From: Actinomycetes bacterium
GTDB lineage: Bacteria > Actinomycetota > Acidimicrobiia > Acidimicrobiales > Palsa-688
Direction of reading: 5' to 3'
NCBI GenBank assembly: GCA_021788115.1
Contig: JAJYLA010000003.1
Span: 1 to 64,000 of the forward strand
DNA length: 64,000 bases
Shown here: piece by piece, positions 228 through 22,078 of the stretch
Layout: each line of letters starts with the position of its first letter
Numbering within the stretch: the stretch's first letter is position 1
Notes under the pieces: generated by a model
The model's input: the letters and a program-made list of their open reading frames with translations, nothing else
Told to the model about the DNA's origin: nothing
Databases searched by the model: none
Program-made: the position numbers and the translations under genes

Positions 228-2012
228 TCATCGAATCAGGCTGACGCCGGCTCCGAGCGTTATCGCATCCGTGGGATCGGGTCTCAGCAGGATCCCGGCA
301 CCGCTCGACGAGGACTGGATGGCATCGACCCAGAATTGCACCTCGAACGCATTTATCGGGCTGCCCCCGGTCAGCCGGAATATGGCGTTGGGGGAAAACA
401 GAATTCCGTGCATGTTGAGGATTGCGCCGCCATCGAAGGTGCTGTCACCGGCGCAGCTCCCTTCGCTCCAGAAGATGAGGTGTGTGTAGGGTGCGAGCGA
501 CGGGGTGTTACCGGTGATGGCAGACCAGGTGACGGAGCTGCCAGATAGGAAGTTGAGACAGCCGCCCGTACCCTGACCGGAGTAGACCAGCGTCTGGGGC
601 AGGTCAACGGTCGCATTACTCGAGACCGTCAGAGACCCGCTGTTCTGCAGGTAGAGCACCGTGTCCTGGGGTGACGACCCCGGGACGACGGTCAGACTAC
701 CGCCGGAGCCTTGAAACGATATGGAACCCTCGAACACGACGGCACCGCCGGACTTGGACGAGTCGATGGTAAGGGAGCCGGGCTTCTGGATGGTCAGGCC
801 GCTCGGGCAGTCCACGTAGGTGTTGTCCTGTATGGTCACGGTGGTCTTGATCGTGCACGAGGGGTGAACGAGGGTGAACCGAGTCCAGCCGGTCGGGAGT
901 GTCGTAGGCCTTAAGCCTGGGGAACCGCTGGTCGTCGTGTAGCCGTACAGGTTCTTCAAGTCGTTGATGTAGTCGTTGCAGTTGAGCGGCACGGGATTTA
1001 GGTTGCTGCAGTGGTAGCGCGCATCGACCGGGGCACGAGTTATGGGCGCTGAAAGCGGCACGGGCACGGGAAAGTAGTTGTACCCGTTCTCGTAGGCGCT
1101 GGCTGGCTGGGTGGTGAGGGCGTACGTGGCGATCACACCGGGTTCCGTGCTGCCGTCGCAGCCAGCCCATATGGAGCCACCGACAGCCTGGGTGGGGGGG
1201 TTTGAGCAGTTCGCGCCGCTGTAGGAGTAACCCCCGCTGTTCTGGCTGCTCGTGTCGAGCACGTAGTGACCGCCGTTGCAGTTGGCGGTGCCGTCCGAAT
1301 CGGCATAGATCTCTGCCTGAGAGACGGGCTTGCCATTACTGTCGACGGCAGGATATGCCCAGATGTCCCCGGAGCCGGAACTGACCGCGTCGCAGATGTG
1401 TTTGTCGAGCGCGGCTAGGTCGGGGACCTTCGGACCGATCTTGGTGGAGTAGAGGGCGACGGCGTGGACGGCGACATTTCCGCTGCTCGTTCCAGCCGCG
1501 GGCCCGAACACGAACGGCTGGTGCTGCCGGATTTGCACACCGAACCGCTGGCAGGGGTTGCCGTCGCTCGGTTGGATTCCCTCGAAGTTGCTCATCATGG
1601 GATCTCCGTCGGGGACCGGGGTCTCCATGGTGATGGTGTAGGAACCGATGGACTGGGGGGCCTCGTCGGTGGACGTGGGGCACGGGCTGGTGCTGGATCC
1701 GTCCCAGCGCTGGGTGGTGAAGCCCGAGCACGAAAAGGCTTCGCCGGTGGGGAGGTCGGGGAGGTTCTGCTGCAGGTACGCCCACGCCTCGGTGCAGGCG
1801 AGCTGGGATGATCCGCCGCTCGCGTAGTCGAGGTTGTTCGCGCCGCTCAGGGCGGCAAAGTCCGCCGCGGTCTGGATCGTGCGCTGGTCCGAGCGGACGG
1901 ACGCGAGATCAACGACGAGCGCGGCGATGGCAACCAGGACCAGTATGAAGACAGCCGCGATGACGAGGACGGAGCCTTTGTCGGGATCGTCCGGGCGGCG
2001 GGAGTGTGTCAT
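228..2012 (-). CDS. tadG: TadG-like pilus assembly protein with large extracellular domain
   Basis: Last gene of the Tad (tight adherence) operon; TadG-type proteins are membrane-anchored, pseudopilin-like components of Flp pilus machinery. Residues about 15-37 form one hydrophobic segment after a short basic start, followed by the TadG-type stretch DQRTIQTAADFAALSGAN. The remaining ~550 residues are Ser/Gly/Thr/Asn-rich with many Cys and look extracellular; the last ~200 have short alternating beta-strand-like motifs (for example SLTIDSSKSGGAVVFEG) suggestive of a beta-solenoid. The ATG overlaps the tadE stop by 4 bp, so translation is probably coupled. GC is lower than in the housekeeping genes. 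The N-terminus and position make the Tad assignment sound; the role of the large C-terminal domain is unknown. Confidence 0.8.
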   Translation of the reverse strand: MTHSRRPDDPDKGSVLVIAAVFILVLVAIAALVVDLASVRSDQRTIQTAADFAALSGANNLDYASGGSSQLACTEAWAYLQQNLPDLPTGEAFSCSGFTTQRWDGSSTSPCPTSTDEAPQSIGSYTITMETPVPDGDPMMSNFEGIQPSDGNPCQRFGVQIRQHQPFVFGPAAGTSSGNVAVHAVALYSTKIGPKVPDLAALDKHICDAVSSGSGDIWAYPAVDSNGKPVSQAEIYADSDGTANCNGGHYVLDTSSQNSGGYSYSGANCSNPPTQAVGGSIWAGCDGSTEPGVIATYALTTQPASAYENGYNYFPVPVPLSAPITRAPVDARYHCSNLNPVPLNCNDYINDLKNLYGYTTTSGSPGLRPTTLPTGWTRFTLVHPSCTIKTTVTIQDNTYVDCPSGLTIQKPGSLTIDSSKSGGAVVFEGSISFQGSGGSLTVVPGSSPQDTVLYLQNSGSLTVSSNATVDLPQTLVYSGQGTGGCLNFLSGSSVTWSAITGNTPSLAPYTHLIFWSEGSCAGDSTFDGGAILNMHGILFSPNAIFRLTGGSPINAFEVQFWVDAIQSSSSGAGILLRPDPTDAITLGAGVSLIR

Positions 2013-2581
2013 ACCGAGCAGTTCTCACAGCGGCCGAACGCGGCCGAGGTGAGAGTGAGGGTGTGGTTCCACACGACGGCATCGAGGTTGGCCGTCCGCT
2101 CGACGACGACTTCGACGATCGTGTCCGAGATCGAGGCGGGGGGGGTCGCGCCCGGGCAGCTGTGTCCGGTCGTGATGCTGCCTGTATTAGAGGTTCCCCA
2201 TTCGAGCATCGAAGACAGTCCGGACGGGGGGATGTATGCCACGCAAATCATCCGCCCCGACGTGCCCTCGTCCAGTTCGCCTTGCGCGTTGGGTATGGCG
2301 TAGCACGCCACATCGACGAGCCACTCGCCAAGCGGGCTGGAGGCGGGGGTTGTCGTGCAGGGCGGCGTTTCTAGTGGGGACCATCCTCCGGGGATCGCAT
2401 GCGTCGTGGCGTAGCGGGCGGCGACGCGTGCGGCGTCGGTCAGGGTGATCTTTCGGTTGTACGCCAGTCCCCCTGTTACCGCTCCGAGGATCAGCATGAG
2501 CAGCGGGATGATGACGAGCGCAAATTCGACCAGAGCGGCCCCCCTCTGATCATGCGCTCGACTTCGAAATGTCCTTCGCAT
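2009..2581 (-). CDS. tadE: TadE-family pseudopilin
   Basis: 190-residue minor pilin-like protein of the Tad apparatus. The N-terminus carries the TadE signature RGAALVEFALVIIPLL (Glu at residue 19) in a single membrane segment at about 16-38, after a short basic leader resembling the prepilin-peptidase site. The rest is predicted extracellular, with paired Cys near the C-terminus. It lies 13 bp downstream of tadC and overlaps tadG by 4 bp, the usual C-E-G order. A prepilin peptidase would be needed to process it, and none is encoded in this window. Confidence 0.87.
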   Translation of the reverse strand: MRRTFRSRAHDQRGAALVEFALVIIPLLMLILGAVTGGLAYNRKITLTDAARVAARYATTHAIPGGWSPLETPPCTTTPASSPLGEWLVDVACYAIPNAQGELDEGTSGRMICVAYIPPSGLSSMLEWGTSNTGSITTGHSCPGATPPASISDTIVEVVVERTANLDAVVWNHTLTLTSAAFGRCENCSV

Positions 2582-2594
2582 GCCCCCGATACCT

Positions 2595-3527
2595 CTAGAT
2601 GATGTGCGGTTTGATCACTTGGTTGTAGATCTCGATCACGGCCGGCCCGACTATCACCACAAACAGCGCCGGCAGGATGCAGAAGACGAGCGGGAAGAGC
2701 ATCTTGGTGGGCGCCTTCTGCGCGCGCTCTTCCGCGTGCTGGCGCGCGGCGGTGCGGATCTCGGCGGACTGGGAGCGGAGGATCTGGAGGATGGAGATGC
2801 CAAAACCCTCCGCCTGTATGAGGGCGAGGATGAACGTCCGCAGTTCGGGGACGTCGCAGCGCTCGTTGACGCCCTGGAGAGCGTCTCGGCGGGAAACACC
2901 CAGGCGGTTCTCGGCGAGCATCCGTGAGAACTCATCGCTGAGCGGACCCGGGAGGGCGGCCACGGTCCGGCTCAGCGCTTGCTCGAGGCCCAGTCCCGCT
3001 TCGACGGAGATCGTCAGCAGGTCGAGAAGGTTGGGGAGCTGGCGGCGGATCCTGTTCTGGCGGTCTTGAACGCGGCGGTTGAGCATCGCGTCGGGTCCGA
3101 GCACCAGGAACAGCCCGACGACAATGAAGAAGAAGATCGACGCGGTCGTGCTCACCGGGAGGAGCATCGCAGCGGCGAGCGTCACCGGAAGCAGGCCGAG
3201 TGTCAGCAGACGGGTTCCGAGGAAGCGGTCGGCGTCTGCAGGGTGGGCGTGGCCTGCGAGGATCATCCGTCGCCGGACGCTGGCGGCGTAGCCGGGCGGT
3301 GTGATGAGAAGCGCGGTCCGGGCCAATCCGCGAAGCGCGGGGAGGATCACGCGTTCGCCGAAGGAACGGGCGTCCACCTCGCCTGTCGGTCTCGTGTCGG
3401 GAGCGAGGGTCCCGGCGGCGGCGCCAAGGGTGGCGCGCACAGCGGCGCGGCTGCTGAGGCGGGTGAAGGCCACGAGGAGCAGGAGCCCGACGGCCAGCGC
3501 CGTTGCGACGACTGCGACGATCAACAC
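2595..3527 (-). CDS. tadC: TadC, inner-membrane platform protein (T2SS-F family)
   Basis: 310-residue integral membrane protein of the GspF/TadC family, which with TadB forms the platform on which the TadA ATPase drives Flp pilus assembly. Membrane helices are visible at about 3-23, 105-145 and 280-305. The T2SSF domain in between includes the stretch [19 protein letters not shown]. The GTG start follows an AGGAGGTGAT Shine-Dalgarno box with rather long spacing. It sits 27 bp after tadB and before tadE on the same strand. Confidence 0.9.
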
Positions 3528-3554
3528 GGTGTCAGATCACCTCCTCGTGGGTCC

Positions 3555-4610
3555 TCATAGGTCGATCTGTACTGTGCGGTACAGCCACCAGCCGCCGACG
3601 ATCTCCAGCGCGAGTGCACCGACGAGCGCGAGCTGGCCGGCCAGGGTTTGGAACAGCACGTCTATGTAGCTTCTGTTGACGACGTACACCAGCATCCCGA
3701 TTGCGACGGGCAGGGCCAGGAGGATGACGGCGCTGAGCCGTCCTTCGGCCGTGAGGGTGCGGACCTCGCGGCGAAGCTTCTCGCGTTCGGTCATGGTGCG
3801 CGCGACGGTGTCGAGGATCTCGGAGAGGTTGCCACCGGCCTCGCGCTGGATCCGGATCGCCATCACCGACCAGGAGAAGTCCTGACTTCCCACCCTGTCG
3901 GCGGCCGCCTGGAGGGCGTCCTCCACCGAAGCACCCACCCGCGTGGCGGCGAAGGCCTGACGCAGTTCGGAGGCTATGGGATCCGTGACCTGCTCCAAGA
4001 TGGCGTCGAGCCCCTGCAGGAGGGAGAAACCGGCTCGCAGGGAAGCGGCGAGCAGCTTGAGCACGTCGGAGAGCTGGCTGTCGAAGCGGCGCCTGCGGCG
4101 GTCACCGAGGTACTGGAGCGTGGCCGGCGGGGAGATCACCGTGATCACGCACGCGAAGATGAATCCCACGACCCCGCCGGCGACGGCGCCGAGCAGGAGG
4201 AGCACGGCACCGCCGAGCAGCCACACGACGAGCAGCTCCCCGACTCCGATCGGCAGTCCGGCTTTTGCGAGCCGGACCTCGAGGGTCTGGCGAAGCTCGC
4301 GCTTCTCCGCGAGTCGGGTGAGGGCGTCGGCCAGGCGGCGCAGGAAGGAGAGCGTCACGACAGCCGAGCCCTGCGCCTGTGGCGGCGGCTCCTCGCGACG
4401 GATCCGGTAGCGCTCGAGGGTCTCGGCCAGGTCCCGGTTCGGGCGGCGCAGGATGAGGAACACGGCGTAGAAGGCGAGGATCACCGTGGCGATCACCAAC
4501 GCCGCCACGTCGAGGGGGCCGACGTGAACCCCGATCGAACGGAACCAGTCGCTCACCCCGCGGGTAACCTGGTGCAACCCCGACGACACGGTGGCGAGGA
4601 GCACGGTCAT
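3555..4610 (-). CDS. tadB: TadB, inner-membrane platform protein (T2SS-F family)
   Basis: 351-residue partner of TadC in the pilus platform. It has an N-terminal helix, a basic cytosolic stretch, a helix pair around 120-165, a T2SSF domain containing LKLLAASLRAGFSLLQGL, and C-terminal helices. I start it at the ATG at 4610, 7 bp after the tadA stop; the frame extends further upstream but would run deep into tadA. Gene order tadA-tadB-tadC is the standard one. Confidence 0.9.
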   Translation of the reverse strand: MTVLLATVSSGLHQVTRGVSDWFRSIGVHVGPLDVAALVIATVILAFYAVFLILRRPNRDLAETLERYRIRREEPPPQAQGSAVVTLSFLRRLADALTRLAEKRELRQTLEVRLAKAGLPIGVGELLVVWLLGGAVLLLLGAVAGGVVGFIFACVITVISPPATLQYLGDRRRRRFDSQLSDVLKLLAASLRAGFSLLQGLDAILEQVTDPIASELRQAFAATRVGASVEDALQAAADRVGSQDFSWSVMAIRIQREAGGNLSEILDTVARTMTEREKLRREVRTLTAEGRLSAVILLALPVAIGMLVYVVNRSYIDVLFQTLAGQLALVGALALEIVGGWWLYRTVQIDL

Positions 4611-4617
4611 CGCCTCG

Positions 4618-5964
4618 TCAACGACGCCCGACCGGGGCCCTCGCGAAGCCCTCGGTCTGGAACAAGGCTGCGTCCAGCGCGAACCCCTGGTCCGCGAGGC
4701 GCTCCGCAAACTTGGGGCGCAGGCCCGTTGGTTTGAGTGTGCCGAGCGACCGCCCCTCGGCGTCGACTCCCATGCCGTAGTCGAACAGGAAGAGATCCTG
4801 GAGCACCACGACCTCGCCTTCCATACGCTCGACTTCGGTCACGTGAGTCACCCGCCGGCTCCCGTCCCGGAGGCGGGCGAGGTGCACGATGAGGTCCAGC
4901 GCAGAGGCCATCTGATCGCGAATGGCCCGCACCGGCAGGTCGAAGCCGGCCATGAGCGTCATCGTCTCGATGCGCGACAGGGCGTCGCGCGGGCTGTTGG
5001 CGTGCACGGTGGTGATCGATCCGTCGTGGCCTGTGTTCATGGCCTGCAGCATGTCGAGCGCCTCCCCCGAGCGGACCTCGCCCACGATGATCCGGTCGGG
5101 TCGCATCCGCAGAGAGTTGCGCACGAGGTCACGGATCGTCACCTCGCCTCGCCCCTCGGTGTTGGGCGGCCGGGCTTCGAGCGTCAGCACGTGCTCCTGG
5201 CGCAGCTGCAGTTCCTTTGCGTCCTCGATCGTGACGATGCGCTCATCGGCAGGGAGGAAAGACGACAGGACGTTGAGCAGGGTCGTCTTGCCGGTGCTGG
5301 TGCCGCCGGACACGAGGACGTTGAGCCGGCCGGCGACACACCGTTCGAGGAATGTGCGCAGAGCCGGAGTCAGGGTCCCCATCGTCACCAGGTCCTCCGC
5401 GGTAAAGGGGTCCTGAGGGAACTTGCGGACGGTCAGGTAGGGTCCCGTGATGCTGAGAGGAGGATAGACGGCGTTGACCCGGGAGCCGTCGGGAAGCCGG
5501 GCGTCGACCATCGGGGAGCTCTCGTCGATGCGCCGGCCCACGCCGGCGACGATCCGCTCGACCACCCGGCGCAGGTGTGCCTCGTCGATGAAGCGGCTCT
5601 CGGTCAGGACGAGCCGGCCTTCGTGCTCGACGTATATGTGCTCCGGGCCGTTGACCATGATCTCGCTGACGGTCGGGTCCCGGAGGAACGGTTCGATGGG
5701 GCCGTGCCCGAGGATGTCGTCCATCAGCTCCTGGACGAGCTGGATCTTTTCGGCGGCGGAGAGGGGCGTCGTGTCCTCGCGGAGGCCGGCCTGGAGGAGC
5801 TGCTGCACGCGGCGGCGCAGCTCGTCCTCGGCCACCTGGCCGTCGAAGTAGACGGAGCCGAGATCCGCGACGACGTTCTGGTGGATCCGCTGCCTGACGG
5901 CGGAGAGGGTGGCAGCGGCACCGTTCGGCGATTGGGCCTCTCGAATCCGGTCGTAGAGGCTCAT
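4618..5964 (-). CDS. tadA: TadA/CpaF secretion ATPase
   Basis: 448-residue cytosolic hexameric ATPase that powers Flp pilin polymerisation. An intact Walker A, SGGTSTGKTT, lies near residues 217-226. The Walker B region RIIVGEVRSGEA is near 286-297 and is followed by the His-box segment NTGHDGSITTVHANSPRD. The N-terminal region before residue 100 is the usual CpaF helical domain. Length is normal for the family. The ATG overlaps the tadZ stop by 4 bp. All catalytic motifs are intact, unlike the GspE-like ATPase at 16373-18301. Confidence 0.95.
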   Translation of the reverse strand: MSLYDRIREAQSPNGAAATLSAVRQRIHQNVVADLGSVYFDGQVAEDELRRRVQQLLQAGLREDTTPLSAAEKIQLVQELMDDILGHGPIEPFLRDPTVSEIMVNGPEHIYVEHEGRLVLTESRFIDEAHLRRVVERIVAGVGRRIDESSPMVDARLPDGSRVNAVYPPLSITGPYLTVRKFPQDPFTAEDLVTMGTLTPALRTFLERCVAGRLNVLVSGGTSTGKTTLLNVLSSFLPADERIVTIEDAKELQLRQEHVLTLEARPPNTEGRGEVTIRDLVRNSLRMRPDRIIVGEVRSGEALDMLQAMNTGHDGSITTVHANSPRDALSRIETMTLMAGFDLPVRAIRDQMASALDLIVHLARLRDGSRRVTHVTEVERMEGEVVVLQDLFLFDYGMGVDAEGRSLGTLKPTGLRPKFAERLADQGFALDAALFQTEGFARAPVGRR

Positions 5965-7175
5965 GGCTCTCCCTCGGAGGATGCACGGTTGAGGATGAGG
6001 GACGCGATCTCTCGCATCCTCCCCGCGAAGCGGGATCGGTCGAACTCCAGGACGGCGGGAGCTCCCTTGTTGACCGACTGGGGGACCAGGGCGTCCGAGG
6101 GCAGGCTGGCGTCGACCTTCATCTGCAGCGCACGTTCGACGTCGCGCGTCGCGAGGTGAACCCGGGAGTCGGCGCGGTTGAGCACGACGAGGATCCGGTC
6201 GAGGGGTATCTGGACGAGCTCGAGCGCTTGCAGGCCGAGCCGGGCGTTCTTCACGGACGGGACGTCCATTCCGACCACGTACACGATGTCGTCGCTCTCC
6301 GACAGCACCTGCAGCACCGTGTCATCGAGGACCGGAGCGGTGTCCACGATGATGTGATCGGCCGTGCGTCGCATGACCGCCAGGACCTCGGAGATCGACT
6401 GGGAGGTCACCTTGGCCCCCTCCGAGGTGTCGGTCGGCGCGGCGAGGACGTACACCCCGCTCCGCTCGTGGCGGACCAGGAGACTTTCGAGAAGGTCGGC
6501 ATCGAGGCGGCTGCCGGCGGCGGCCGCCTCGCCGACATGGTGCGCCGGCTTGAGCCGGAGCATCACGGCGACGTCGCCGAACTGGAGATCGAGATCGAGC
6601 AAGGCGACCGCGCGGTCGCTGCGGTGCGCCAAAGCGGTCGCCAGGTTCACGGAGATGACCGACTTACCTACTCCCCCCTTGGGGGAGAACACCGTCGTGA
6701 CGCGGCCGCGGTGCTCGGCGGGCGTGGTCGGTCGCGCCGTCGTCTTCGACGATGAGCTCGACTGAAGCCTGTAGCGGAGGTCTCGGACGGCTCCGGGGAG
6801 ATCCTCCTCTGTGCGGTCGAGCGCGACGGCGTCGTCGAGCCCCGCCCTGAGTGCCATCCGGAGAGTCGCCGCGTCGGGCTCGGCAACCACGAGCACTGCG
6901 CCGAAGGAGCCCTCGGTGCGCAGCAGCGCGCTCACCCGGTCCAGGGTGCTCTCCTCGTACACCTGGGAAGGGCCGAGGACGAGGACCAGCCCCTCCGCGG
7001 TGTCGATGTCGCTGTCGAGAAGCTCGTCGAGGTGGAGAAACGGCTGCAGGGTGGGCACGGAGGCCAGGACCCCGACGAGCCGGGCCAGGACGACGGCGTC
7101 TTCCTCGACGACGGCAACGGCCGCTCCCGGCAGAGCTGAGGCGGCTTCGACGCTGTCCACGCCCCCGGTGGTCAC
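5961..7175 (-). CDS. cpaE: TadZ/CpaE, MinD-like ATPase of the Tad pilus
   Basis: 404 residues. An N-terminal domain of ~130 residues resembles a response-regulator receiver but without a clear phospho-acceptor signature. It is followed by a ParA/MinD ATPase domain with the deviant Walker A SPKGGVGKS near 163-171 and the motif LLDLDLQFGDV. In characterised Tad systems this protein localises the apparatus to the pole. It is coupled to tadA by a 4-bp overlap and lies 8 bp after cpaB. Confidence 0.9.
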   Translation of the reverse strand: MTTGGVDSVEAASALPGAAVAVVEEDAVVLARLVGVLASVPTLQPFLHLDELLDSDIDTAEGLVLVLGPSQVYEESTLDRVSALLRTEGSFGAVLVVAEPDAATLRMALRAGLDDAVALDRTEEDLPGAVRDLRYRLQSSSSSKTTARPTTPAEHRGRVTTVFSPKGGVGKSVISVNLATALAHRSDRAVALLDLDLQFGDVAVMLRLKPAHHVGEAAAAGSRLDADLLESLLVRHERSGVYVLAAPTDTSEGAKVTSQSISEVLAVMRRTADHIIVDTAPVLDDTVLQVLSESDDIVYVVGMDVPSVKNARLGLQALELVQIPLDRILVVLNRADSRVHLATRDVERALQMKVDASLPSDALVPQSVNKGAPAVLEFDRSRFAGRMREIASLILNRASSEGEP

Positions 7176-7183
7176 GCTACCCG

Positions 7184-7945
7184 CTAGCCCTTCGGGGTCA
7201 GGGTGGCCGGGATGAGGCTCGTTCCGTTGACCGGGGGGGTCGACACCGGCTTGTTGCCGGGAGGAACGAGCGCCAGGTACAGGGAGCCGCTGACTCCGCC
7301 TCCACCGCTTTGCGCGAGGGCGATCCGCTGCGCCGCGGCGGGCGGCACCGCGAAGGTGATCAGCCCGCTCCCCGAGGTCGCCGCGGTGGAGGGGGGAGTG
7401 CTCGCGGCTGCGACCGCCCCCGAGGCGAACGACGAGCCGATCGCCAGGATCGGAACGTTCTGGTACAGAAAGCGTTCGGCGCCGGACATCTCGACCAGGA
7501 TGTCCACCTCGTCCCCGGGCTGCAGCATCCCGGCGACGGCATGCATGGCGTCGATGGACACCGTGATCGCCACGTCGCCTTTGGGAATGGCCTGCGAAGC
7601 GGTCGATGCGGCGACCGCCGGGCTGGCGAACTCATCGCTGACCAGCACCTGACCGGACGAGAGGTTGGCAACGGCGATCTCGTTGCGGATCGTTGCGAGA
7701 TCCGTGACAGCGTCCGCCGGAAGGAACTGCTGGGGTATCTCGCCGCGCTTGACGAGACCCTTCGAGACGACGATCTGGCCGGAGGTCCCCTTCGCGATCG
7801 GACCCGCGACCGTGTAGACAGGCACGAGAGCGGCGTTGTTGTAGGCACGCTTCTGCACGTCGTGGAGGTACAGATAGGAGGCTCCCCCCGCCACCACCGC
7901 GAGGAGAAGAGCTACCGCCGCAACCAGGGTTCGCCGCCCCGTCAC
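7184..7945 (-). CDS. cpaB: CpaB/RcpC, Flp pilus assembly protein with SAF domain
   Basis: 253 residues with one N-terminal membrane helix (about 6-25) and an exported region containing the SAF-like fold (PIAKGTSGQIV, GEIPQQFLPADAV) and the CpaB segment LQPGDEVDILVEM. CpaB proteins act in the envelope during pilus assembly. The Gram-negative secretin partner (CpaC) is absent, as expected for a single-membrane actinobacterium. The GTG start overlaps the stop of the preceding glycosyltransferase gene by 4 bp (GTGA). Confidence 0.88.
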   Translation of the reverse strand: MTGRRTLVAAVALLLAVVAGGASYLYLHDVQKRAYNNAALVPVYTVAGPIAKGTSGQIVVSKGLVKRGEIPQQFLPADAVTDLATIRNEIAVANLSSGQVLVSDEFASPAVAASTASQAIPKGDVAITVSIDAMHAVAGMLQPGDEVDILVEMSGAERFLYQNVPILAIGSSFASGAVAAASTPPSTAATSGSGLITFAVPPAAAQRIALAQSGGGGVSGSLYLALVPPGNKPVSTPPVNGTSLIPATLTPKG

Positions 7946-9279: not shown

Positions 9280-9472
9280 TGCGGACCAGGTTGGCGGTGT
9301 TGTTGAGGCTCGCCCCGAGGGTGTGGCCGAAGAAGGCGAGCGCCCCGAGGGCCACGACGGCGACGAGGACCAGGAGGAAGGCGTACTCCACCAGGCTCGC
9401 CCCGAGCTCGACCTGCGCGGAGCTCTGCAGCTGTCGAACGCCGGCGCTGATCGCCCAAACCATCCGAGTCAC
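9269..9472 (-). CDS. flp: Flp-family type IVb pilin (copy 1)
   Basis: 67-residue prepilin. The Flp motif G|ASLVEYAFLLVLVAVVAL has its cleavage Gly at residue 24, Glu at mature position 5 and Tyr at position 6. A single hydrophobic alpha-helix follows, then a short tail rich in Asn. I chose the GTG at 9472 because an AGAGGA box precedes it by 6 nt; an ATG three codons later (9463) is the alternative. The longer frame reaching 9607 would overlap the upstream gene and lacks a ribosome site. It overlaps the GT87-like gene by 11 bp. Confidence 0.88.
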   Translation of the reverse strand: MTRMVWAISAGVRQLQSSAQVELGASLVEYAFLLVLVAVVALGALAFFGHTLGASLNNTANLVRNAG

Positions 9473-9569
9473 GCCGTTTCCTCTTTCGTGCAAGCGTCTG
9501 CCCTCGTCCGTGCCGGGCTCAACCCCCAGTGTGGAGCGCCACGAGTCGAAGGTCGATGGGTCCATCGAA

Positions 9570-11650: not shown

Positions 11651-12277
11651 TCAATGCAGGCGGACGATGCCTTGCCGCAACCCTTGCAGCACGGCCTGGG
11701 TGCGATCGCGGGTGTCCATCTTTTCGTAGATGTTGGCGAGATGGTTCTTGACCGTCTTGGCGCTGATGTACAGCTTGCGGGCGACCATGGCGGTGGAGGC
11801 GCCCTCGGCGACGAGTTGGAGCACCTCGACCTCCCGCGGGCTGAGCACGGGTACGGCGCCGTCTCCGCTGTTGGCCTTCAACAGCTGGCGGGCGAGGCCG
11901 AGGGACATGTCCGTGTCGCCGGCGGCCACGGCGCGGATGACGTCGACGATCTCGGCCGTGCTGCAGTCCTTGACGAGATAGCCGACTGCGCCGGCCCGGA
12001 TGGCCTCGCTGAGGGTTGCGCCGTCCCCGAACATCGTGAGCATGACCACGTGGGTGTCGGGGTGCGTGGTGGTGACGCGCCGGGCGACCTCGACCCCGTC
12101 CATGACGGGCAGGGAGATGTCGAGAAGCATCACGTCCGGGCGCAGTTCCTCTACAGCGCCCAGAGCCGACGGGCCGTCGCCGGCCTCGCCGACGACGTCG
12201 ACGCCGAAGGTCTCGAGCGACCGCGCCAAGCCTTCCCGCAGGACGCGGTGGTCGTCGACGAGGAGGACCCGGGTCAC
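11651..12277 (-). CDS. NarL/LuxR-family response regulator
   Basis: 208 residues. The receiver domain has acidic pocket DD at 8-9 and phospho-acceptor Asp53 (VMLLDISLPVMDG). The C-terminal LuxR-type helix-turn-helix includes LSPREVEVLQLVAEG and ISAKTVKNHLANIYEKM. The start is the GTG at 12277, which overlaps the kinase stop by 4 bp (GTGA). The two form a cognate two-component pair directly upstream of the pilus genes on the same strand. Regulation of the tad locus is an inference from this arrangement. Confidence 0.92.
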   Translation of the reverse strand: MTRVLLVDDHRVLREGLARSLETFGVDVVGEAGDGPSALGAVEELRPDVMLLDISLPVMDGVEVARRVTTTHPDTHVVMLTMFGDGATLSEAIRAGAVGYLVKDCSTAEIVDVIRAVAAGDTDMSLGLARQLLKANSGDGAVPVLSPREVEVLQLVAEGASTAMVARKLYISAKTVKNHLANIYEKMDTRDRTQAVLQGLRQGIVRLH

Positions 12278-13983: not shown

Positions 13984-14034
13984 GTTGTGCCCTTCCAGCA
14001 GCCGGTCTGCCTCAGATCGGCGCTCCCGGGCGGA

Positions 14035-14040
14035 ACTTTA
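14035..14040 (-). promoter_or_regulatory. candidate -10 box (TAAAGT) for the kinase/regulator pair
   Basis: Reads TAAAGT on the minus strand, 51 nt upstream of the kinase ATG, in a locally A-rich stretch of the divergent intergenic region 13984-14171. No clear -35 was found. Confidence 0.35.
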
Positions 14041-14171
14041 GCCGGGGAGAAGAAAAAGGCCTACGGATGCAACACAACAGACACAAAACATCCACCCAAA
14101 GCGTGGCCCGTCGTGGAGCGCGGTGGTCCGTTCGGCCCATTGATCGCGCCGGCGCCGTCCGGTACGAAGGC

Positions 14172-15737
14172 ATGGTGAGCAGCAGTCCAGCTCCCGCCGC
14201 GCAGGCTGCGCCGGTGGAGGAGGAGCTTCCGCCGGAGCAACGCGGAGGGGCGCGCCCGCGCAGGGGCCGCCCGGGGCTGCCGGCGTTGCACCCCGCGTGG
14301 ATCGTCACCATCGGGGCGTGCGCGGTCTTGTTCCGGGTCGCGATGGCGTCGGGGCTCAACAACGACGTCTACTGGCAGCTCGCCGCCGGCAACTGGATGC
14401 TCGGACACCATGCCGTCATCCGCCACGACGTCTTCTCCTACACGGTCCCCGGCCACCCGTGGTTCGCCGAGGAGTGGGGGTTCGAGGTGCTGCTGGCCTG
14501 GATGGTCCGCCACGTCGGGCCGGTGAGCTACTGGCTGGTCTCGGCGGGGGCGACGAGCGGTGCGCTCCTTCTGAGCGCAGCCCGCTGCCGGCGCCTGGGC
14601 TCCGGTCAGCTGTGGACCGCGGCCCTCGCCATCATGGTCGCCGGCGGGCTGGTCATCGGGGTGGCGCCGCGGCCCCAGGACCTGAGTTACCTGTTCTTCG
14701 CTTTCGAGCTTTTGACGCTGACGCTCGCACGGCGGGATCGGCGCTGGCTCCTCGCCCTGCCCCCCCTTCTCCTGCTGTGGGCGAATCTCCACGGCAGCTT
14801 CCTGTTCGGGCTGGCCGTCTTCGGCTTCGACGTGGCGGCGTCCGCGGTTGCGCGCGCCCGGCAGCCCGGCCCCGCGGCGCCGGGCGGCGCTCGGGAGCTC
14901 CGGGTTCGCGGCCGGGTCGGGGTGGGCGCCCCTCTCCCGGCCCGCTGGGGCGCGGCGAGCTTCGCAGCGTCCCTGATCGCCCCCGTCGTCAACCCGCACG
15001 GCCTGGGCCTGTATCGCTACGCGTTCCATGTCGGCACCACCAGCAAGCTCAACGGCATCGAAGAGTGGCAGTCCCCGAACTTCCACGACCCGGTCCTGCT
15101 GGTGTTCGTGGCCCTGCCGGCCGTCGTCGCCGCCGTGTGGCTCGCGTCCAGCCGGCAGCGCGTCGAGCTGTTCGACCTGGTGGTGTGGGCCGTGCTGCTG
15201 ATCGCCACCCTGCGCGCGGTGCGCTTCGGGCCGTACATGGTGATCGCCCTCGCCGGGGTCCTGGCGCCGTGGAAGGTCGTGCCGAAGGAGACCCTCAGAG
15301 CGTCCCGGGTGGCGCCGCTCGCCGCGCTCGCCCTGGTGGCGCTGATCGTCTCACCGCATCACCCGCCGGCCGGCGCCCCCACCACACGGGGTTCGGGGGC
15401 CGTGCCGGTCCGGGCGGCCGCCTGGCTGCGCGCACAGGGCGGCCGGGTCTTCTCGACCTACGTGTGGAACGACTACCTGATCCACGTCGGCGTCCCCGAC
15501 TTCGTCGACGGCCGCACCGACATGTACTTCGGCACCGGCGTGCTTGACACCTACACCAAGGTGTCCTCCCTGTCGCAGGCACCCGACCCCGTGTTCGACC
15601 GCTACGGCGTGCGCTGGGTGCTGTGGCCCCGGGGCGACGCCCTGTCCACCTACCTCGCCCAGGACCCCCGGTGGCACGTGGCGCGCCGCTTCGGCCCCGA
15701 CCTCGTGTTCGAGCGCGTGTCAGACCATTCGCAGTAA
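14172..15737 (+). CDS. GT-C-like multi-pass membrane protein
   Basis: 521 residues. A Pro/Arg-rich cytosolic start is followed by about ten hydrophobic helices and a C-terminal extracytoplasmic domain of ~110 residues. The first large loop, containing NNDVYWQLAAGNWMLGHH and then HDVFSYT, with the downstream WFAEEWGFEVLL, resembles the acidic catalytic loop of lipid-linked-sugar transferases. The tail carries DFVDGRTDMYFGTGVLDTY. The start at ATG 14172 was chosen because the upstream frame is not protein-like. It is divergent from the kinase gene and converges with, overlapping by 18 bp, the gene at 15720-16109. Specific function unknown; a glycosyltransferase role is inferred. Confidence 0.72.
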   Translation: MVSSSPAPAAQAAPVEEELPPEQRGGARPRRGRPGLPALHPAWIVTIGACAVLFRVAMASGLNNDVYWQLAAGNWMLGHHAVIRHDVFSYTVPGHPWFAEEWGFEVLLAWMVRHVGPVSYWLVSAGATSGALLLSAARCRRLGSGQLWTAALAIMVAGGLVIGVAPRPQDLSYLFFAFELLTLTLARRDRRWLLALPPLLLLWANLHGSFLFGLAVFGFDVAASAVARARQPGPAAPGGARELRVRGRVGVGAPLPARWGAASFAASLIAPVVNPHGLGLYRYAFHVGTTSKLNGIEEWQSPNFHDPVLLVFVALPAVVAAVWLASSRQRVELFDLVVWAVLLIATLRAVRFGPYMVIALAGVLAPWKVVPKETLRASRVAPLAALALVALIVSPHHPPAGAPTTRGSGAVPVRAAAWLRAQGGRVFSTYVWNDYLIHVGVPDFVDGRTDMYFGTGVLDTYTKVSSLSQAPDPVFDRYGVRWVLWPRGDALSTYLAQDPRWHVARRFGPDLVFERVSDHSQ

Positions 15738-16109
15738 AAGGATGTTGGAGATCACGGCCGCGAGGTAGAGACCCGACACCGTCCAGGTGCCGACCAGGAG
15801 CCCGAGCCTCGGGCGGTCCCACAGCACCGCGATTCCGAGCGCCGCGACGATCGCCATCTTGACCAGCAGGAGGCTGCCCGACGCCAGAAGCAGGCCGGCG
15901 AGCGGGTTGGCCTCGAGGCCTCCCGCCGGAGCGTGCAGCAAGAAGAGGTGCGTCGTCACCGCGTCCGCAGCATTGAGCAACGCCAGCGCCACGACCCCGA
16001 CGATCGTCAGGTGCTTGATCCGGCGCTCGAGGCCGTACGTCGCCTCGGCAGCCCGCCGGCTGGCGGCCCACCTGCCACGACGGTGGCTGACGGCGATGCT
16101 CTGGGGCAC
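15720..16109 (-). CDS. small membrane protein, DUF5658-like
   Basis: 129 residues: a basic N-terminus, then three to four hydrophobic helices. The motif LNAADAVTTHLFLLHAPAGG and then LEANPLAG is the hallmark of the DUF5658 group (D..T, E.NP). I chose the GTG at 16109 because AGGAGG precedes it by 4 nt; the frame extends upstream to 16250 with an implausible Arg/Ser-rich stretch. It converges with the preceding gene (18-bp overlap). Function unknown. Confidence 0.75.
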   Translation of the reverse strand: MPQSIAVSHRRGRWAASRRAAEATYGLERRIKHLTIVGVVALALLNAADAVTTHLFLLHAPAGGLEANPLAGLLLASGSLLLVKMAIVAALGIAVLWDRPRLGLLVGTWTVSGLYLAAVISNILLLRMV

Positions 16110-16372
16110 AGGACCTCCTCGATGTCGTCGCGCGGCGCTCGAAGACCAACGTACGACACTTCGTTCTACCCCAGGAGGCGACCCTTCAGACGCGCCATCT
16201 CGAGCCGGCGCCGCATGCGGGACCGAAACATCCGAACGGCCCGGGCCCAATGGCGCGCGACGGCCGGACCGTCACCGATGGCCGCGCCAGCCGGTCAACC
16301 CCGCCCCAGGCTGACCGGCCGGCGGTAGGCACCCCCTCGGTGATCGTGCGCCGCCTGGCGGGCTGCCCCCGG

Positions 16373-18301
16373 TCATAGCGCGTGGATGCTCCGCATGACT
16401 TCGGAGACGGTGGTGAGGTCCCGGGCGACGAGGGAGACCCCCTCGCTGCGCAGCGGGCGCATGCCCCGGCTGATGGCGGCGTCGCGCAGCTCCTCCTCGG
16501 AGGCCCAGCCGACGACGAGCCGCCGGATCTCGGGGGTGACAGGCAGGAGCTCGTACACCCCGATGCGGTCCTGGTAGCCGGTTCCGGCGCAGAAGGTGCA
16601 CCCCTCGCCGCGGCGGAACACGTCCTTCGGCGGCCCGCCGGCGTCTGCGTAGAACGCCAGCTCGGACTCCGTGGGCTGGTAGGGCGCGGCGCACGCTCTG
16701 CAGGTGCGGCGCACGAGGCGCTGGCTGAGCACGCCGACCAGCGAGGAAGCCACCAGGAAGGCGTCGGCGCCCATGTCCACCACCCGGCGCAGCGCCGCGG
16801 CAGAGTCGGCGGCGCGCAGCGACGCGAGCACGAAACGGCCGGCGACGGCGGCCTGGACTGCCGTCCGGGCGGTGTCGGCGTCGCGGATCTCGCCCACGAC
16901 GACCACGTCGGGGTCCTGGCGCAGGGCGGTCCGCAGCTGCTCGGCGACGGGCACGCCGCTCGCGCCGTTGGCCTGCACCTGGGTGATCGACGGGAGCAGG
17001 TGCTCGACGGGGTCCTCGACGGTGACGAAGCTCCGCGAGCGCTCCTCGATGTGGCTCAGCACGGCGTAAAGGGTGGCGGTCCTGCCGCTCGCGGGCGGCC
17101 CGGCGCACAGAACCATGCCGGAGGTGGAGCGAACCATGCTCTCGAAGGCGGCGCACGTGTCGGCGGCCATCCCCAGCTGGTCGAGCCGCAGCAGCGCGCG
17201 GTCGCCGGCCACCACACGCAGCGCGCACGTCTCCCCGAGGACGGTCGCCATGGTCGAGACCCGCACCTCGACGGGGCGGCCGTCGAACTCGGCGCCGAAG
17301 CGGCCGTCCTGGGGCCTGCGCCGATCGGCAACGTCGAGACCCGCGAGGAACTTGACCCGGCTCACGAGCGCCTCCGACATCGACGGGGGCAGCGTCAGCA
17401 CGTCGTGGAGCGCGCCGTCGATCCGGAAACGGACCCTCATGTCCTCGCTCCCCGGCTCCACGTGCACATCCGAGGCGCGGTCTCGCAGCGCCTGGGTCAT
17501 GAGCACGGTGAGCAGCTTGGCGACGGGGGAGTCGGCGTCGCGGGCCCGCTCGGTCGCCGGCGCCTCGCCGGCGAGGGACGTGCCGTCACCGGCCGCGTAG
17601 GCCTTGACGAGCCGGTCGACGTCGGCCAGAGCCCGGTACGCGCGGTCGATGGCGTGGCGCGCCTCGGTCGGGGTGACGGCGAAGAGCTGCACGGGGGCGC
17701 CGACGGCCTCGCTGACGAGGGTCTCGAGGCCGGGCCGCGGGTCGCCCACCACCACGTCGACGACCCCGTCGACATCCCGGAGCGGCAGAGCGGTCAGCTC
17801 CCGTGCGGCCTTCTCGCCGATCCGGCCGGCAAGGTGGGGATCGGGCGCCGTGTCGCGCAGGTCCACGAGGGCGATGCCGAACTGCTCCGCAACGACCCGG
17901 GTCAGCTGCCGCTCGTCGAGGGCCCCCACCTGGATGAGAAGCTCCCCGACCCGCAGGCCCGACCCGGGCTGCTCGGCGAGCGCCTGGGCGAGCTGGCCGG
18001 GGGTGACGAGACCCTGCTCCACGAGGAGGTCGCCGAGGAGACTGCCGGACCGGGCGGGGCCGGTCGCGGGGGCGGGGGAGGGGGAGAACAGCGGAAGGTC
18101 GAGGCCGGACACGGGCCACCCCGTCGACCGCACCCCGGTGGGGGCCGGCCGGCCCCACAGCTGCTCGCCGCGCGACGCCGCACCGGTGGCCTCCCGGAGG
18201 TCGCTCTTGTCGGGAAGGAGGTCCTCCCAGCGGCCCGCCGCGGGAAAGAGCTCCCGGCCCCGCGGGCTGTGTGCGCCGCCACGGCCGAACAGGCGCGCCA
18301 T
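16373..18301 (-). CDS. GspE/PulE-family secretion ATPase with degenerate catalytic motifs
   Basis: 642 residues. An N-terminal MshEN-like region (LGDLLVEQGLVTPGQLAQAL, then GELLIQVGALDERQL) precedes a GspE core. Preserved are the Asp box RASDVHVEP (near 272-280), Walker B DPDVVVVGEIRD, and the zinc tetracysteine CRAC...CTFC. Altered are the Walker A, which reads GPPASGRTATLY (401-412; Arg407 where Lys is invariant), and the His box, SLRAADS (Arg496 where LHTND is usual). It may be a weak or inactive ATPase, or a regulatory subunit. Start ATG overlaps the upstream gene's stop (TGATG). No PilC-, PilM- or pilin-like gene is adjacent, so its apparatus is elsewhere or it is an orphan. Confidence 0.88.
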   Translation of the reverse strand: MARLFGRGGAHSPRGRELFPAAGRWEDLLPDKSDLREATGAASRGEQLWGRPAPTGVRSTGWPVSGLDLPLFSPSPAPATGPARSGSLLGDLLVEQGLVTPGQLAQALAEQPGSGLRVGELLIQVGALDERQLTRVVAEQFGIALVDLRDTAPDPHLAGRIGEKAARELTALPLRDVDGVVDVVVGDPRPGLETLVSEAVGAPVQLFAVTPTEARHAIDRAYRALADVDRLVKAYAAGDGTSLAGEAPATERARDADSPVAKLLTVLMTQALRDRASDVHVEPGSEDMRVRFRIDGALHDVLTLPPSMSEALVSRVKFLAGLDVADRRRPQDGRFGAEFDGRPVEVRVSTMATVLGETCALRVVAGDRALLRLDQLGMAADTCAAFESMVRSTSGMVLCAGPPASGRTATLYAVLSHIEERSRSFVTVEDPVEHLLPSITQVQANGASGVPVAEQLRTALRQDPDVVVVGEIRDADTARTAVQAAVAGRFVLASLRAADSAAALRRVVDMGADAFLVASSLVGVLSQRLVRRTCRACAAPYQPTESELAFYADAGGPPKDVFRRGEGCTFCAGTGYQDRIGVYELLPVTPEIRRLVVGWASEEELRDAAISRGMRPLRSEGVSLVARDLTTVSEVMRSIHAL

Positions 18302-18750
18302 CAGTCCCTCTGCGGGAGCAGGCGGTGCTCGGTCGCGGCCTTGTCGCAGGTGGTCACGATGTCGCCGTCGGAGGGCACTCTCTCGGCGAAGGGGGCGAAG
18401 CTCGAGCTCCCCGACAGCCCGGCGAGGACGAGGGGAACACGGCCGTGCAGCCCGCAGATGGCGCCCATCTCGCTCAGAGCGGGCTGCGACTCGGGGCGGG
18501 TGCGGATGTCGAGCACCACGTCGACCGGGTGCCGGTCGAGCGGGCAGCCGACGCCGGCGACGACAGCGTTGCAGGGGAAGGGCACGTCGGTGCTCTCGCT
18601 GCAGCGGTGCACGGTGCGGCCGGCGGCGCGCAGCCGGACGGTGGCGTCCCGGATGGCCCAGTCGTCGGATCCCACCACAAGGATCTCGCTCGCGTGGGTG
18701 GAGGGGAGCCGGGAATCTCGCTCGAGGTCAGCGAGGTTGATCTCCGGCAC
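18301..18750 (-). CDS. unknown protein coupled to the GspE-like ATPase
   Basis: 149 residues, soluble, not recognised. Residues about 22-100 have alternating hydrophobic strands and acidic turns (EILVVGSDDWAIRDATVRL, VDVVLDIRTRP, RVPLVLAG), reminiscent of a receiver-like or Rossmann-like alpha/beta fold, but without the receiver Asp-Asp/Lys set. Four Cys are spread through the sequence. It shares a TGATG stop/start with the ATPase gene, so the two are probably made together. It is divergently oriented from the OmpR-type regulator. Confidence 0.7.
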   Translation of the reverse strand: MPEINLADLERDSRLPSTHASEILVVGSDDWAIRDATVRLRAAGRTVHRCSESTDVPFPCNAVVAGVGCPLDRHPVDVVLDIRTRPESQPALSEMGAICGLHGRVPLVLAGLSGSSSFAPFAERVPSDGDIVTTCDKAATEHRLLPQRD

Positions 18751-18822
18751 GGACAGGAGTGTGCAGGTGGCTGCTCACGCGGCTCCCTCCGCCTGCACAA
18801 CAGCGGCCCAACTCCCGACGGG

Positions 18823-18828
18823 TAGTCT
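18823..18828 (+). promoter_or_regulatory. candidate -10 box (TAGTCT) for the OmpR-type regulator
   Basis: TAGTCT ends 11 nt before the ATG at 18840. No Shine-Dalgarno sequence lies in between, so the mRNA would have almost no 5' leader. Confidence 0.5.
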
Positions 18829-18839
18829 TTTGCCCCGTC

Positions 18840-19541
18840 ATGGACAGTCCCTCGCGCGGCCGGATCCTGGTGGTGGACGACGACGAGCAGCTGGCATCGC
18901 TGCTCACTCTCGTGCTCGAGGGGGAGCACTACACCGTGTCGGTGGCCCACGACGCGGCGGGTGCCGTCGGACAGGTGCGCCGGGGCGACGTGGACCTGGT
19001 CGTCCTCGACATCTCCCTCGGCGCCGACGACGGCCGGCTCGTCCTCGGCGAGATCCGCGCCCTGGGCGACCTGCCGGTCATCTTCATCAGCGGCAAGGCC
19101 GACACCGCCGACCGGGTCCTCGGGCTGCGCCTCGGTGCGGACGACTACCTGGCAAAGCCGTTCTCGCCCGTCGAGCTGGTGGCCCGGGTGGAGTCGGTGC
19201 TGCGGCGTGTCGGGCGAGCCACCGGGGCGGCGGGGTCTCACGGGCAGCCCGAGGTGGGTCTGCGCATCGACGAGAGGACCCGCGAGGTGGCGGTTGACGG
19301 AAAGCCGGTCGAGCTGACAGCCAAGGAGTTCGACCTGCTGGCTTTCCTCGCCCGCTCCCCCCGCCAGGTGTTCAGCAGGGGTCAGCTGCTCGAGCAGGTG
19401 TGGGCCTCGCGCTCCGACTGGCAGGACGAGGCGACGGTCACCGAGCACGTCCGCCGGGTCCGTCACAAGGTGGAAAAAGACCCCGAGCACCCGCGCTGGA
19501 TCGTCACCGTCCGGGGCATCGGGTACCGCTTCGAGCCCTAG
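18840..19541 (+). CDS. OmpR/PhoB-family response regulator
   Basis: 233 residues. The receiver domain has the DDD acidic pocket at 13-15, phospho-acceptor Asp57 (LVVLDISLG) and conserved Lys in YLAKPFSP. The C-terminal winged helix includes VELTAKEFDLLAFLARSP and ends VTVRGIGYRFEP. The frame extends upstream to 18759, but ATG 18840 gives a normal N-terminus and lies just behind a -10 box. It converges with the hybrid kinase gene, the two sharing a CTAG stop palindrome. Its partner kinase is not certain. Confidence 0.93.
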   Translation: MDSPSRGRILVVDDDEQLASLLTLVLEGEHYTVSVAHDAAGAVGQVRRGDVDLVVLDISLGADDGRLVLGEIRALGDLPVIFISGKADTADRVLGLRLGADDYLAKPFSPVELVARVESVLRRVGRATGAAGSHGQPEVGLRIDERTREVAVDGKPVELTAKEFDLLAFLARSPRQVFSRGQLLEQVWASRSDWQDEATVTEHVRRVRHKVEKDPEHPRWIVTVRGIGYRFEP

Positions 19542-22078
19542 GAACGGGGCGCCGGGGCCGGGGCCGCCGCCCCGTCGCCGGGTGAGGGCCGGCCGAGCAG
19601 CGCCGCGACCCGCCGGCGCAGGCTGTCGGGCCGGTACGGCTTGCGCAGGATGGAGGCCGGGGAGACCGGCACCTCGCCGGAGACGGGGCTGCCCGAGTAG
19701 GCGGTCATGTACAGGACGGGCAGCGACGGGCGCGCCGCGAGCGCCGTGGCGGCGAGCTCGGGGCCGCTCAGGCCGGGCAGCATGATGTCGGTGACGAGGG
19801 CGTCGAACGCCTCGCCGGCGTCGAGGACGTCGAGGGCTGCCTCGGCCGAGGCGGCCGCGACCACCTCGAGGCCGATGCTCGTGAGCGCGTCCTGGCCGAT
19901 GCGGCGCAGCTCCTCCTCGTCTTCGACCAGGAGGACCCGCCCGGTGACCGTCCACTCGGCGGGCCAGGGCTCGTCGGCCGCCGTGTCCTGCGGGGCGGCG
20001 GGCTCGGCCTCTGCGGCGCCCGGCGCCGGGGCGGCGGTGAGGGGCAGCACCACCCGCATGGCCGTGCCCTCGCCTGGGGCGGATTCGACCAGGAGGATGC
20101 CGCCGCGCTCGTGCACGAGGCCGTAGACGGTGGGCAGCCCGAGCCCGGTGCCGTGGCCGTGCTGCTTGGTGGTGAAAAACGGCTCCAGGCAACGTGCCTG
20201 GACCTCGGCGCTCATGCCGGGCCCGTTGTCGGACACCGCCAGGACCCCGCAGGGTCCCTGGGGGGCGTCCGCGCCGACCGGTGCGCCGCCGGCCGCCGCG
20301 TCGAAGCTGTCCGCGGTCTCGAGCGACAGGACGATCTCTCCGTCCCCGTCGAGGGCGTCGCAGGCGTTGATGGTGAGGTTGACCAGGATCTGCTCCACCT
20401 CGCTCGGCTCCATGCGAACCCACACCGGCTCGGTGGAGACGACCGCGTGCAGATCGACCTTCGGGCCGACGAGCTGGGCGAGCACCGGGCGGAGCCGGGC
20501 CAGCTCGGCTCCGAGGTCGAGCACGACGCCCGTGTCCTCCCGGCGGGTCATGCCGAGCATCTGGCTGGTCAGGTCCGCCGCCCGCCGGGCGGCGTCTTCG
20601 ATGTGGTCGATGTGGGATTCCTGCTCGGCGCCGGAGGCGCTGCGCCGGAGGATGTCCGCGTAGCCGAGGATGAGAGTGAGCAGGTTGTTGAAGTCGTGGG
20701 CGATCCGCCCGGCGACCTGCCCCATCGCTTCGAGCCGCTGCGCCTGCACCAGGGCCTGCTCGGCCCGGCGGATCTCGCTCAGGTCGAGGCCCGCGATCAG
20801 CACGGTGTTGGCGTCGGCCGGGGAGATGGCGGGCATGGGGGCTCCCGACACGGACAGGTCGCGCCCGTCCACCGACACCGTGCGGTTGACGACCGCCCCG
20901 CCGCGGCGGACCGTGTCGGCGAGCTCGATCATCGCCGGGCGAAGGCCCCCGGTGAGCGACCAGGCGGCCGGCTCGGCGTTCCAGCCGAAGAGGTCCAGCG
21001 CCGCCCGGTTCGCGGAGGTGACCGTCCCGTCGGGGCGCAGGCCGATCAGCGCGACCGGTGAGGATTCGACCACCGCGCGCAGCCGGGCCTCGTGCACGAT
21101 GGCCGTCTCGGTCCCGACGGCCCGCTCGAACGCCACCGGGATCAGCGACGCCAGCGAGCTCAGGACCAGCTCCTCGTCGGCGGAGAACTCGTCGCGGACG
21201 AAGACGACCAGCGCCGCCTGCTGCCAGGGGTCGCTGCTCGGCAGCGGGTAGGCGACCCAGCCGGGGCCCCGGGCCGGGCGGCGGGTCGTGACCGACCGGA
21301 AGGCGCCTTCGGCGACGTGCCAGTCGATCTCCCCCGCATGCGCGGAGACCTCCGAGCCGTCGGCCATCCACCACCGGGCGATCGCCCCGTCGGCTTCCTG
21401 GATGACGCACGCCTCGACGCAGGCGACCTCGAGCACCGCCCGGGTGGTGGCGGCGCCGGCGAGGTTGACCGCGGCCGTGGCCAGGCGGCGCAGGCGGCGA
21501 ACGGTGCGGTTCTGCTCGCGCGCGGCCTCCTGCATCTCCTTGTGCAGCATCACCCGCTGGACGGCGCTGCCGAGGCGGCTCGCCATCTCGACGCCGACGC
21601 GCAGGGCCGACGGGCGGAACCCCCGCCGGTAGGGACCGGTGGCGGCGACGAACCACCCGAGGGTGATGCCGCCGCCCGTGATGGGGGCGACGATGAGCGA
21701 CTGGGCGCCGAGGCTCTCGCGGATCACCTTGACGGGCGCGGGCTCCTGGGCGTGGGGGTAGGCGAGCACCGCCCGGCGGTCGCGGGTGCAGGCCCGGCCA
21801 ATGGGCTCCCAGTCCTCGGGCACCACCAGGCCGCTCGTGCCGGCGGCCCCGTAGGCGGGCGTGCCGACCTCCCCGTCGGGCCCGATCACCTCCACGGCGC
21901 AGAGGTCGGCGAAGGCCGGCACGCACGTCTCCACCACCTGCAGCACCGCGTTGCCGTAGTCCTCGAGGGTCGCGTCGAGCACCCGGCTCGTCGCCGAGAG
22001 GAGCTCCAACCGCTGCAGCGCCTCTTGCTGGCCGAGAGCGGCGACGTCGGAGTCGGTCAGCCCTCCGCGGTCCGCCAC
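19538..22078 (-). CDS. hybrid sensor histidine kinase (GAF-PAS-HisKA-HATPase-receiver)
   Basis: 846 residues, soluble. Two GAF-like regions (about 20-180 and 200-345), a PAS domain (about 355-450), the HisKA box AGRIAHDFNNLL with His461, an HATPase domain with NACDAL, DNGPGMS and GHGTGLGL, and a C-terminal receiver with phospho-acceptor Asp764 (LVTDIMLPG). The arrangement resembles CckA-type hybrid kinases. The start is the GTG at 22078, preceded by an AGGGG box; further upstream the same frame stays open as an antisense shadow of the acyl-CoA dehydrogenase and is not coding. The final Ala/Pro-rich tail is low-complexity. Ligands for the GAF domains are unknown. Confidence 0.9.
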   Translation of the reverse strand: MADRGGLTDSDVAALGQQEALQRLELLSATSRVLDATLEDYGNAVLQVVETCVPAFADLCAVEVIGPDGEVGTPAYGAAGTSGLVVPEDWEPIGRACTRDRRAVLAYPHAQEPAPVKVIRESLGAQSLIVAPITGGGITLGWFVAATGPYRRGFRPSALRVGVEMASRLGSAVQRVMLHKEMQEAAREQNRTVRRLRRLATAAVNLAGAATTRAVLEVACVEACVIQEADGAIARWWMADGSEVSAHAGEIDWHVAEGAFRSVTTRRPARGPGWVAYPLPSSDPWQQAALVVFVRDEFSADEELVLSSLASLIPVAFERAVGTETAIVHEARLRAVVESSPVALIGLRPDGTVTSANRAALDLFGWNAEPAAWSLTGGLRPAMIELADTVRRGGAVVNRTVSVDGRDLSVSGAPMPAISPADANTVLIAGLDLSEIRRAEQALVQAQRLEAMGQVAGRIAHDFNNLLTLILGYADILRRSASGAEQESHIDHIEDAARRAADLTSQMLGMTRREDTGVVLDLGAELARLRPVLAQLVGPKVDLHAVVSTEPVWVRMEPSEVEQILVNLTINACDALDGDGEIVLSLETADSFDAAAGGAPVGADAPQGPCGVLAVSDNGPGMSAEVQARCLEPFFTTKQHGHGTGLGLPTVYGLVHERGGILLVESAPGEGTAMRVVLPLTAAPAPGAAEAEPAAPQDTAADEPWPAEWTVTGRVLLVEDEEELRRIGQDALTSIGLEVVAAASAEAALDVLDAGEAFDALVTDIMLPGLSGPELAATALAARPSLPVLYMTAYSGSPVSGEVPVSPASILRKPYRPDSLRRRVAALLGRPSPGDGAAAPAPAPRS

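Follow-up and report, generated by a model that had tools for sequence, protein, structure and literature searches.

An orphaned GspE/PilB-type ATPase homologue with degenerate catalytic motifs in an actinobacterial genome

The closed nucleotide interface of a pilus assembly motor has been described for PilB of Geobacter metallireducens, where T327, T411, H413 and H420 all take part in it (PMC5424180). T327 and T411 form the packing-unit contact at this interface; H413 and H420 are His-box residues, with H420 coordinating the gamma-phosphate (PMC5424180). The same protein uses E357 for Mg binding and E395 as its catalytic Glu, and its R271 and R286 bind both the phosphates and the Asp box (PMC5424180). 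Both the His box and the Walker A Lys are required for function in the PilB/PilT-type family (PMC6762196, PMC5424180).

Here, we describe a homologue of these motors in which much of this machinery is replaced. Its gene lies at 16373..18301 (-) of the window (the whole 64,000-nucleotide stretch of DNA that was analysed), where an ORF beginning with ATG codes for a GspE/PilB-type ATPase homologue of 642 amino acids with degenerate catalytic motifs. The protein matches the T2SSE profile PF00437 at 336.8 bits (cut-off 24.9, E 1.6e-100) across profile positions 3-370 of 370, which assigns it to the T2SSE/PilT-like secretion ATPase superfamily. At the N-terminus, a c-di-GMP-type motif and an MshEN domain (residues 89-224; 17630..18037 (-)) were recognized by profiles scoring above their cut-offs (NF053729, 54.6 bits vs 38; PF05157, 38.2 vs 23.1), such that the protein is a predicted MshEN c-di-GMP-type receptor. 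The zinc tetracysteine of the PilB/GspE clade was intact in the alignment (C534, C537, C568 and C571; 16589..16702 (-)). With MshEN, T2SSE and zinc tetracysteine all present, the protein is of the full-length GspE/PilB type. Its nearest solved structures are PilF of 6f8l and PilB of 5zfr, 3jc8 and 5tsg, and its best NCBIfam models are GspE (TIGR02533, 439 vs 630 bits) and PilB (TIGR02538, 421 vs 676 bits), both under the equivalog cut-off; these scores may reflect the clade rather than decay. An AlphaFold model of the ATPase built from a 14-row alignment was of low confidence (mean pLDDT 61) and was left out of the argument.

The protein aligned to G. metallireducens PilB with a constant offset of 76. 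Alignment and DNA pattern both identified a degenerate Walker A motif (GPPASGRTATLY, residues 401-412; 17066..17101 (-)), which in the ortholog alignment carries the replacements T403P, G404A, K407R and T409A and no longer conforms to GxxxxGK[ST]. Arg407, encoded by AGG at 17081-17083 (-), would occupy the Walker A Lys position of PilB according to our alignment. The His box (VAGRFVLASLRAAD, residues 486-499; 16805..16846 (-)) is likewise degenerate relative to orthologs, with L486V, T487A, H489R and H496R, and R496 sits in SLRAADS. Neither of the His-box histidines survives, nor does the interface threonine pair (T403, T487); PilB T327, T411, H413 and H420 correspond in the alignment to P403, A487, R489 and R496. 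The same alignment showed an intact Asp box (TVEDPVE, residues 427-433; 17003..17023 (-)), where E433 is equivalent to PilB E357, and an intact Walker B with its catalytic Glu (residues 463-474; 16880..16915 (-)), where E471 is equivalent to PilB E395. The arginine fingers R347 and R362 are also kept, as are the equivalents of PilB E357, E395, R271, R286 and R455. Because the residues responsible for holding the phosphates and closing the interface have been replaced, we strongly infer from the PilB structures that the protein would not sustain useful ATP turnover.

A search of 61 genomes at the protein level turned up orthologs with 55-61% identity in eight further genomes of the same family, along with more distant ones within the order. 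A first contig scan with the window protein as query gave no matches, and the alignment of its partner (see below), used as query of the genome contigs, returned nine MAG loci (Acidimicrobiales, Acidimicrobiaceae, Actinomycetes). In every ortholog with a readable motif, the Walker A reads GPTG[SA]GKTTTL and the His box is normal, with Lys at the position of R407 and His at those of R489 and R496 in 15/15. The lost residues are in fact invariant across all 15 orthologs, and the K, H and T are found in the genome's own PilB as well. A DNA pattern for the Arg P-loop matched the 16373-18301 gene and no other (395 genomes of the class; 296 of the phylum), and a pattern for the Lys P-loop gave 25 matches in 60 genomes of the class. 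Invariance in 15 orthologs and the rarity of the Arg pattern together indicate that the motif loss is not chance. The genus is represented by one genome, the window's own (a draft of 238 contigs, 94% complete), and since the fifteen orthologs elsewhere all have normal motifs, the loss is, judging by these alignments, confined to the window's lineage. The ortholog in genome G001 is split into two pieces flanking X residues, which looks like an assembly gap. Catalytic-site loss in the GspE/PilB family appears to be rare, with one case in several hundred actinobacterial genomes pattern-scanned; no described example was found in the literature searched, most subscription journals being outside its coverage.

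The initial annotation of this gene had named R407 in the Walker A motif and R496 in SLRAADS, which is exact in residues and numbering, and the loss proved wider than it noted. It had also listed the Asp box, Walker B and zinc tetracysteine as intact, as borne out by E433, E471 and C534/C537/C568/C571. It had asked whether Arg407 and Arg496 are conserved in orthologs, holding that normal Lys and His in close orthologs would refute a pseudo-ATPase and point to a local mutation or assembly error. Its guess of Acidimicrobiia fits the relatives named above. Neither Arg is conserved (normal Lys and His in 15/15); a pseudo-ATPase is nevertheless the best-supported reading of the residues. The opposite proposal, a still-active ATPase that tolerates the Arg and the lost His box, would be compatible with the intact Asp box, catalytic Glu and both Arg fingers, but is very unlikely: no ortholog lacks the Lys or the His, T403, G404, T409 and the interface T487 have been lost here too, and the family needs its Walker A Lys and His box (PMC6762196, PMC5424180).

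The surroundings of the gene have also changed. Gene order is shared by G001, G007 and the window (PutA, acyl-CoA dehydrogenase, hybrid kinase, divergent response regulator, partner, GspE-like), showing that this is the same locus. In relatives with longer contigs GspE is followed by GspF and then by pilin-like genes with N-methyl or PilX motifs, and a PilT-like gene is often part of the locus as well. In the window, the next gene encodes a DUF5658 membrane protein (15720..16250 (-)) where orthologs have GspF and pilin-like genes. No relics of GspF or pilins were found downstream when the orthologous operon proteins were compared with the whole window by tblastn; the only matches were Tad proteins and, through PilT, the GspE-like gene itself, with a best E of 0.18 elsewhere in 11800-20500. 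Nor was a cognate GspF found in the 94%-complete genome, in which the best match was PilC of contig C24 (31%), and prepilin N-methyl motifs occur only on that contig. There is a small chance that the missing GspF and pilins simply went unassembled in the draft. The GspE-like gene is an orphan left over from a pilus operon. The OmpR-type response regulator at 18759-19541 (+), divergent from the partner and in the same place in relatives, has outlasted that operon.

It had been stated earlier that there are no adjacent pilus genes, which misread the context: a separate Tad pilus locus (TadG, TadE, TadC, TadB, TadA, CpaE, CpaB; 228..7945 (-)) lies on the same strand within the window, and what is missing is the gene's own GspF and pilin operon, present in orthologs. 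The TadA of this locus has an intact P-loop, and we regard the locus as context for the GspE-like gene and not as a proven partner. Beside it, a Flp-like ORF (9269-9607 (-); 228-9607 with the Tad locus) scored under the Pfam cut-off, and a second TadA-like gene with a T2SSF match at G000:C56:1-7361 (L104) suggests a second Tad-type locus in the genome. A PilT-like ORF (L102:9424-10995, contig C84 of the same genome) lies away from other pilus genes, beside ParA/ParB-like and thioredoxin genes. The second, intact PilB for which the initial annotation had proposed a search is present (G000:C24:36773-38446). Contig C24 also holds intact PilT, PilC and other type IV pilus genes, so that the organism possesses a further type IV pilus locus that looks complete.

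The presence of intact PilB, PilT, PilC and pilins raises the question of whether the GspE-like protein could act as a non-catalytic subunit in the hexamer of the C24 PilB or of another motor, tuning it in a PilT/PilU-like manner. PilU depends on PilT, which supports it even when inactivated (PMC6762196); the arginine fingers and MshEN of the GspE-like protein are kept. However, identity to the C24 PilB is only 40%, and each motor has its own locus in relatives with both. We consider such a role very unlikely.

To quantify the change in the protein, we used the 111 positions within residues 255-642 that are identical across the 15 orthologs. The window protein differs at 24 of these, whereas the same test applied to each ortholog gave 0-8. 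Changes fell at 4/11 positions in Walker A and 4/7 in the His box, compared with 0/7 in Walker B and 0/6 in the Asp box. Change is thus concentrated in Walker A and the His box (8/18 vs 16/93, Fisher p = 0.024), and the zinc and C-terminal part escaped it (0/17, p = 0.021), both p values being modest and the motif borders set by us. To this extent the loss is selective, as had been suggested, but the protein is otherwise well kept only in part, for the acceleration covers the whole of its N2D and ATPase core. The terminal branch of the window gene is 0.53, against 0.118 (G007) and 0.068 (G009), approximately 4-8 times longer than those of intact relatives. No such excess was observed for the partner (0.49 vs 0.37-0.49), for the response regulator (0.41 vs 0.27-0.38) or for the genome's own PilB, which indicates that the acceleration belongs to the GspE-like gene and not to the lineage.

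The spread of changes over the core makes a local mutation or assembly error unlikely despite the normal orthologs, and the 24 invariant-site changes together with the whole-core rate shift rule out a point mutation or assembly error as the explanation. An artefact of assembly or sequencing more broadly might be feared in a draft of 238 contigs that is the sole genome of its genus, but dozens of in-frame changes extend throughout the core, GC3 (0.95) bears a coding signature and the neighbours are normal, which renders it extremely improbable.

Base composition moved along with the rate. GC1/GC2 of the GspE-like core is 0.741/0.513, vs 0.616-0.674/0.415-0.451 in orthologs and 0.663/0.427 in the genome's own PilB. 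Of the 24 invariant-site changes, 15 are A/T to G/C at first or second codon positions; the partner and the regulator show no comparable shift. Movement of these positions toward the GC bias of the genome would be a sign of relaxation. Such non-synonymous G+C drift, as seen in 16373-18301 (-), could be a general marker of relaxed selection in GC-rich genomes.

The main rival explanation is that the gene is a decaying relic, functionless since the loss of its operon and drifting, with no stop or frameshift acquired yet. The compositional shift would fit this proposal, as would a several-fold longer branch in the GspE-like gene only and the disappearance of the cognate genes. The character of the changes argues against it. 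The 24 invariant-site changes have a mean BLOSUM62 score of 0.29 vs about -0.64 from unselected mutation (p about 0.002). Their mildness persists when Walker A and the His box are set aside (p = 0.009), and 72 changes located at family-invariant positions match those of intact outgroups in mildness. Moreover, the 386-codon core is gap-free and contains no stop. Simulated neutral drift to 25% amino-acid change predicted 0.7-2.1 core stops and, with indels assumed to arise at 0.05 per substitution, about 12 of them across the whole gene; the absence of stops is weak evidence alone in so GC-rich a genome (P(no stop) up to about 0.29), which leaves the relic some room, while the lack of core indels, the unchanged Asp box and Walker B, and the sparing of the zinc and C-terminal invariant sites argue against it. 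On balance a relic is possible, though rather unlikely.

Mild changes and the absence of core indels thus stand beside a raised rate, in a genus with one genome. The statistical evidence suggests that the fold was under selection during much of the change, not necessarily today. We therefore favour, with modest confidence, a catalytically dead motor that was orphaned and has been retained as a non-catalytic protein, its fold under relaxed selection. According to this model, the ancestral protein would have been the assembly motor of a second type IV pilus or T2SS-like operon. The GspF platform and downstream pilin-like genes, whose absence is observed, would have been deleted in this lineage, and the motor, having lost its phosphate-holding and interface-closing residues, would have ceased useful ATP turnover. 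Because the frame is open, the core gap-free and conserved-site changes as mild as in functional orthologs, selection would have gone on holding the fold, and the protein would most likely persist for its MshEN/c-di-GMP-type and zinc/C-terminal modules. Against retention, some of the mild changes may predate the loss. Should the cell still make and fold this protein, it would amount to a natural experiment on what a pilus motor can do when deprived of ATP turnover; were it a relic instead, it would offer a clear snapshot of pilus operon erosion in a GC-rich genome.

The retained protein might not act alone. Its partner gene (18301..18750 (-), GTG start) lies upstream, its stop overlapping the GspE-like start by one base, and encodes a small alpha/beta protein of 149 amino acids with four Cys (50, 60, 69 and 99) conserved in most homologues. 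No Pfam or PDB sequence match of weight was found; the predicted alpha/beta fold (pLDDT 86) gave weak SIS and receiver domain matches (query TM about 0.5), consistent with a Pfam-less family of four conserved cysteines and a receiver/SIS-like predicted fold. The partner adjoins the GspE ortholog in five genomes (G001, G002, G007, G009, G025) and was not found in three others with a GspE ortholog (G006, G020, G027). In other Acidimicrobiales (L096, L097, L099) such a locus has it immediately ahead of its PilT-like gene; members of the family thus precede GspE or PilT-like genes at type IV pilus loci of this order. Since the partner evolves at a normal rate here, its role is probably independent of an active GspE. 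More tentatively, then, the motor may have turned non-motor after pilus loss, as an orphan GspE pseudo-ATPase, perhaps a c-di-GMP-responsive scaffold, working with this Cys-rich receiver-like partner.

Comparison with known systems places the protein as follows. The Acidimicrobiales-type MAG orthologs (such as L054, L056, L061 and L068) resemble it at 55-61% identity, and those in G001, G002, G007, G009 and G025 have the same leader genes (response regulator, partner); they differ in having normal motifs and, where the contig extends, GspF and pilin-like genes after them. PilU, a PilT-dependent accessory motor, would resemble it as a second motor paralogue relying on another motor, and differs in that its Walker motifs are intact and needed (PMC6762196). 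With the PilB/PilF/GspE ATPases (PF00437; 6f8l, 5zfr, 5tsg, 4ksr) the window protein shares MshEN, N2D, the ATPase core, the Cys4 zinc module, the Asp box, Walker B and the Arg fingers, whereas its Walker A Lys, both His-box His and the interface Thr pair are replaced, and it stands without a cognate GspF or pilins.
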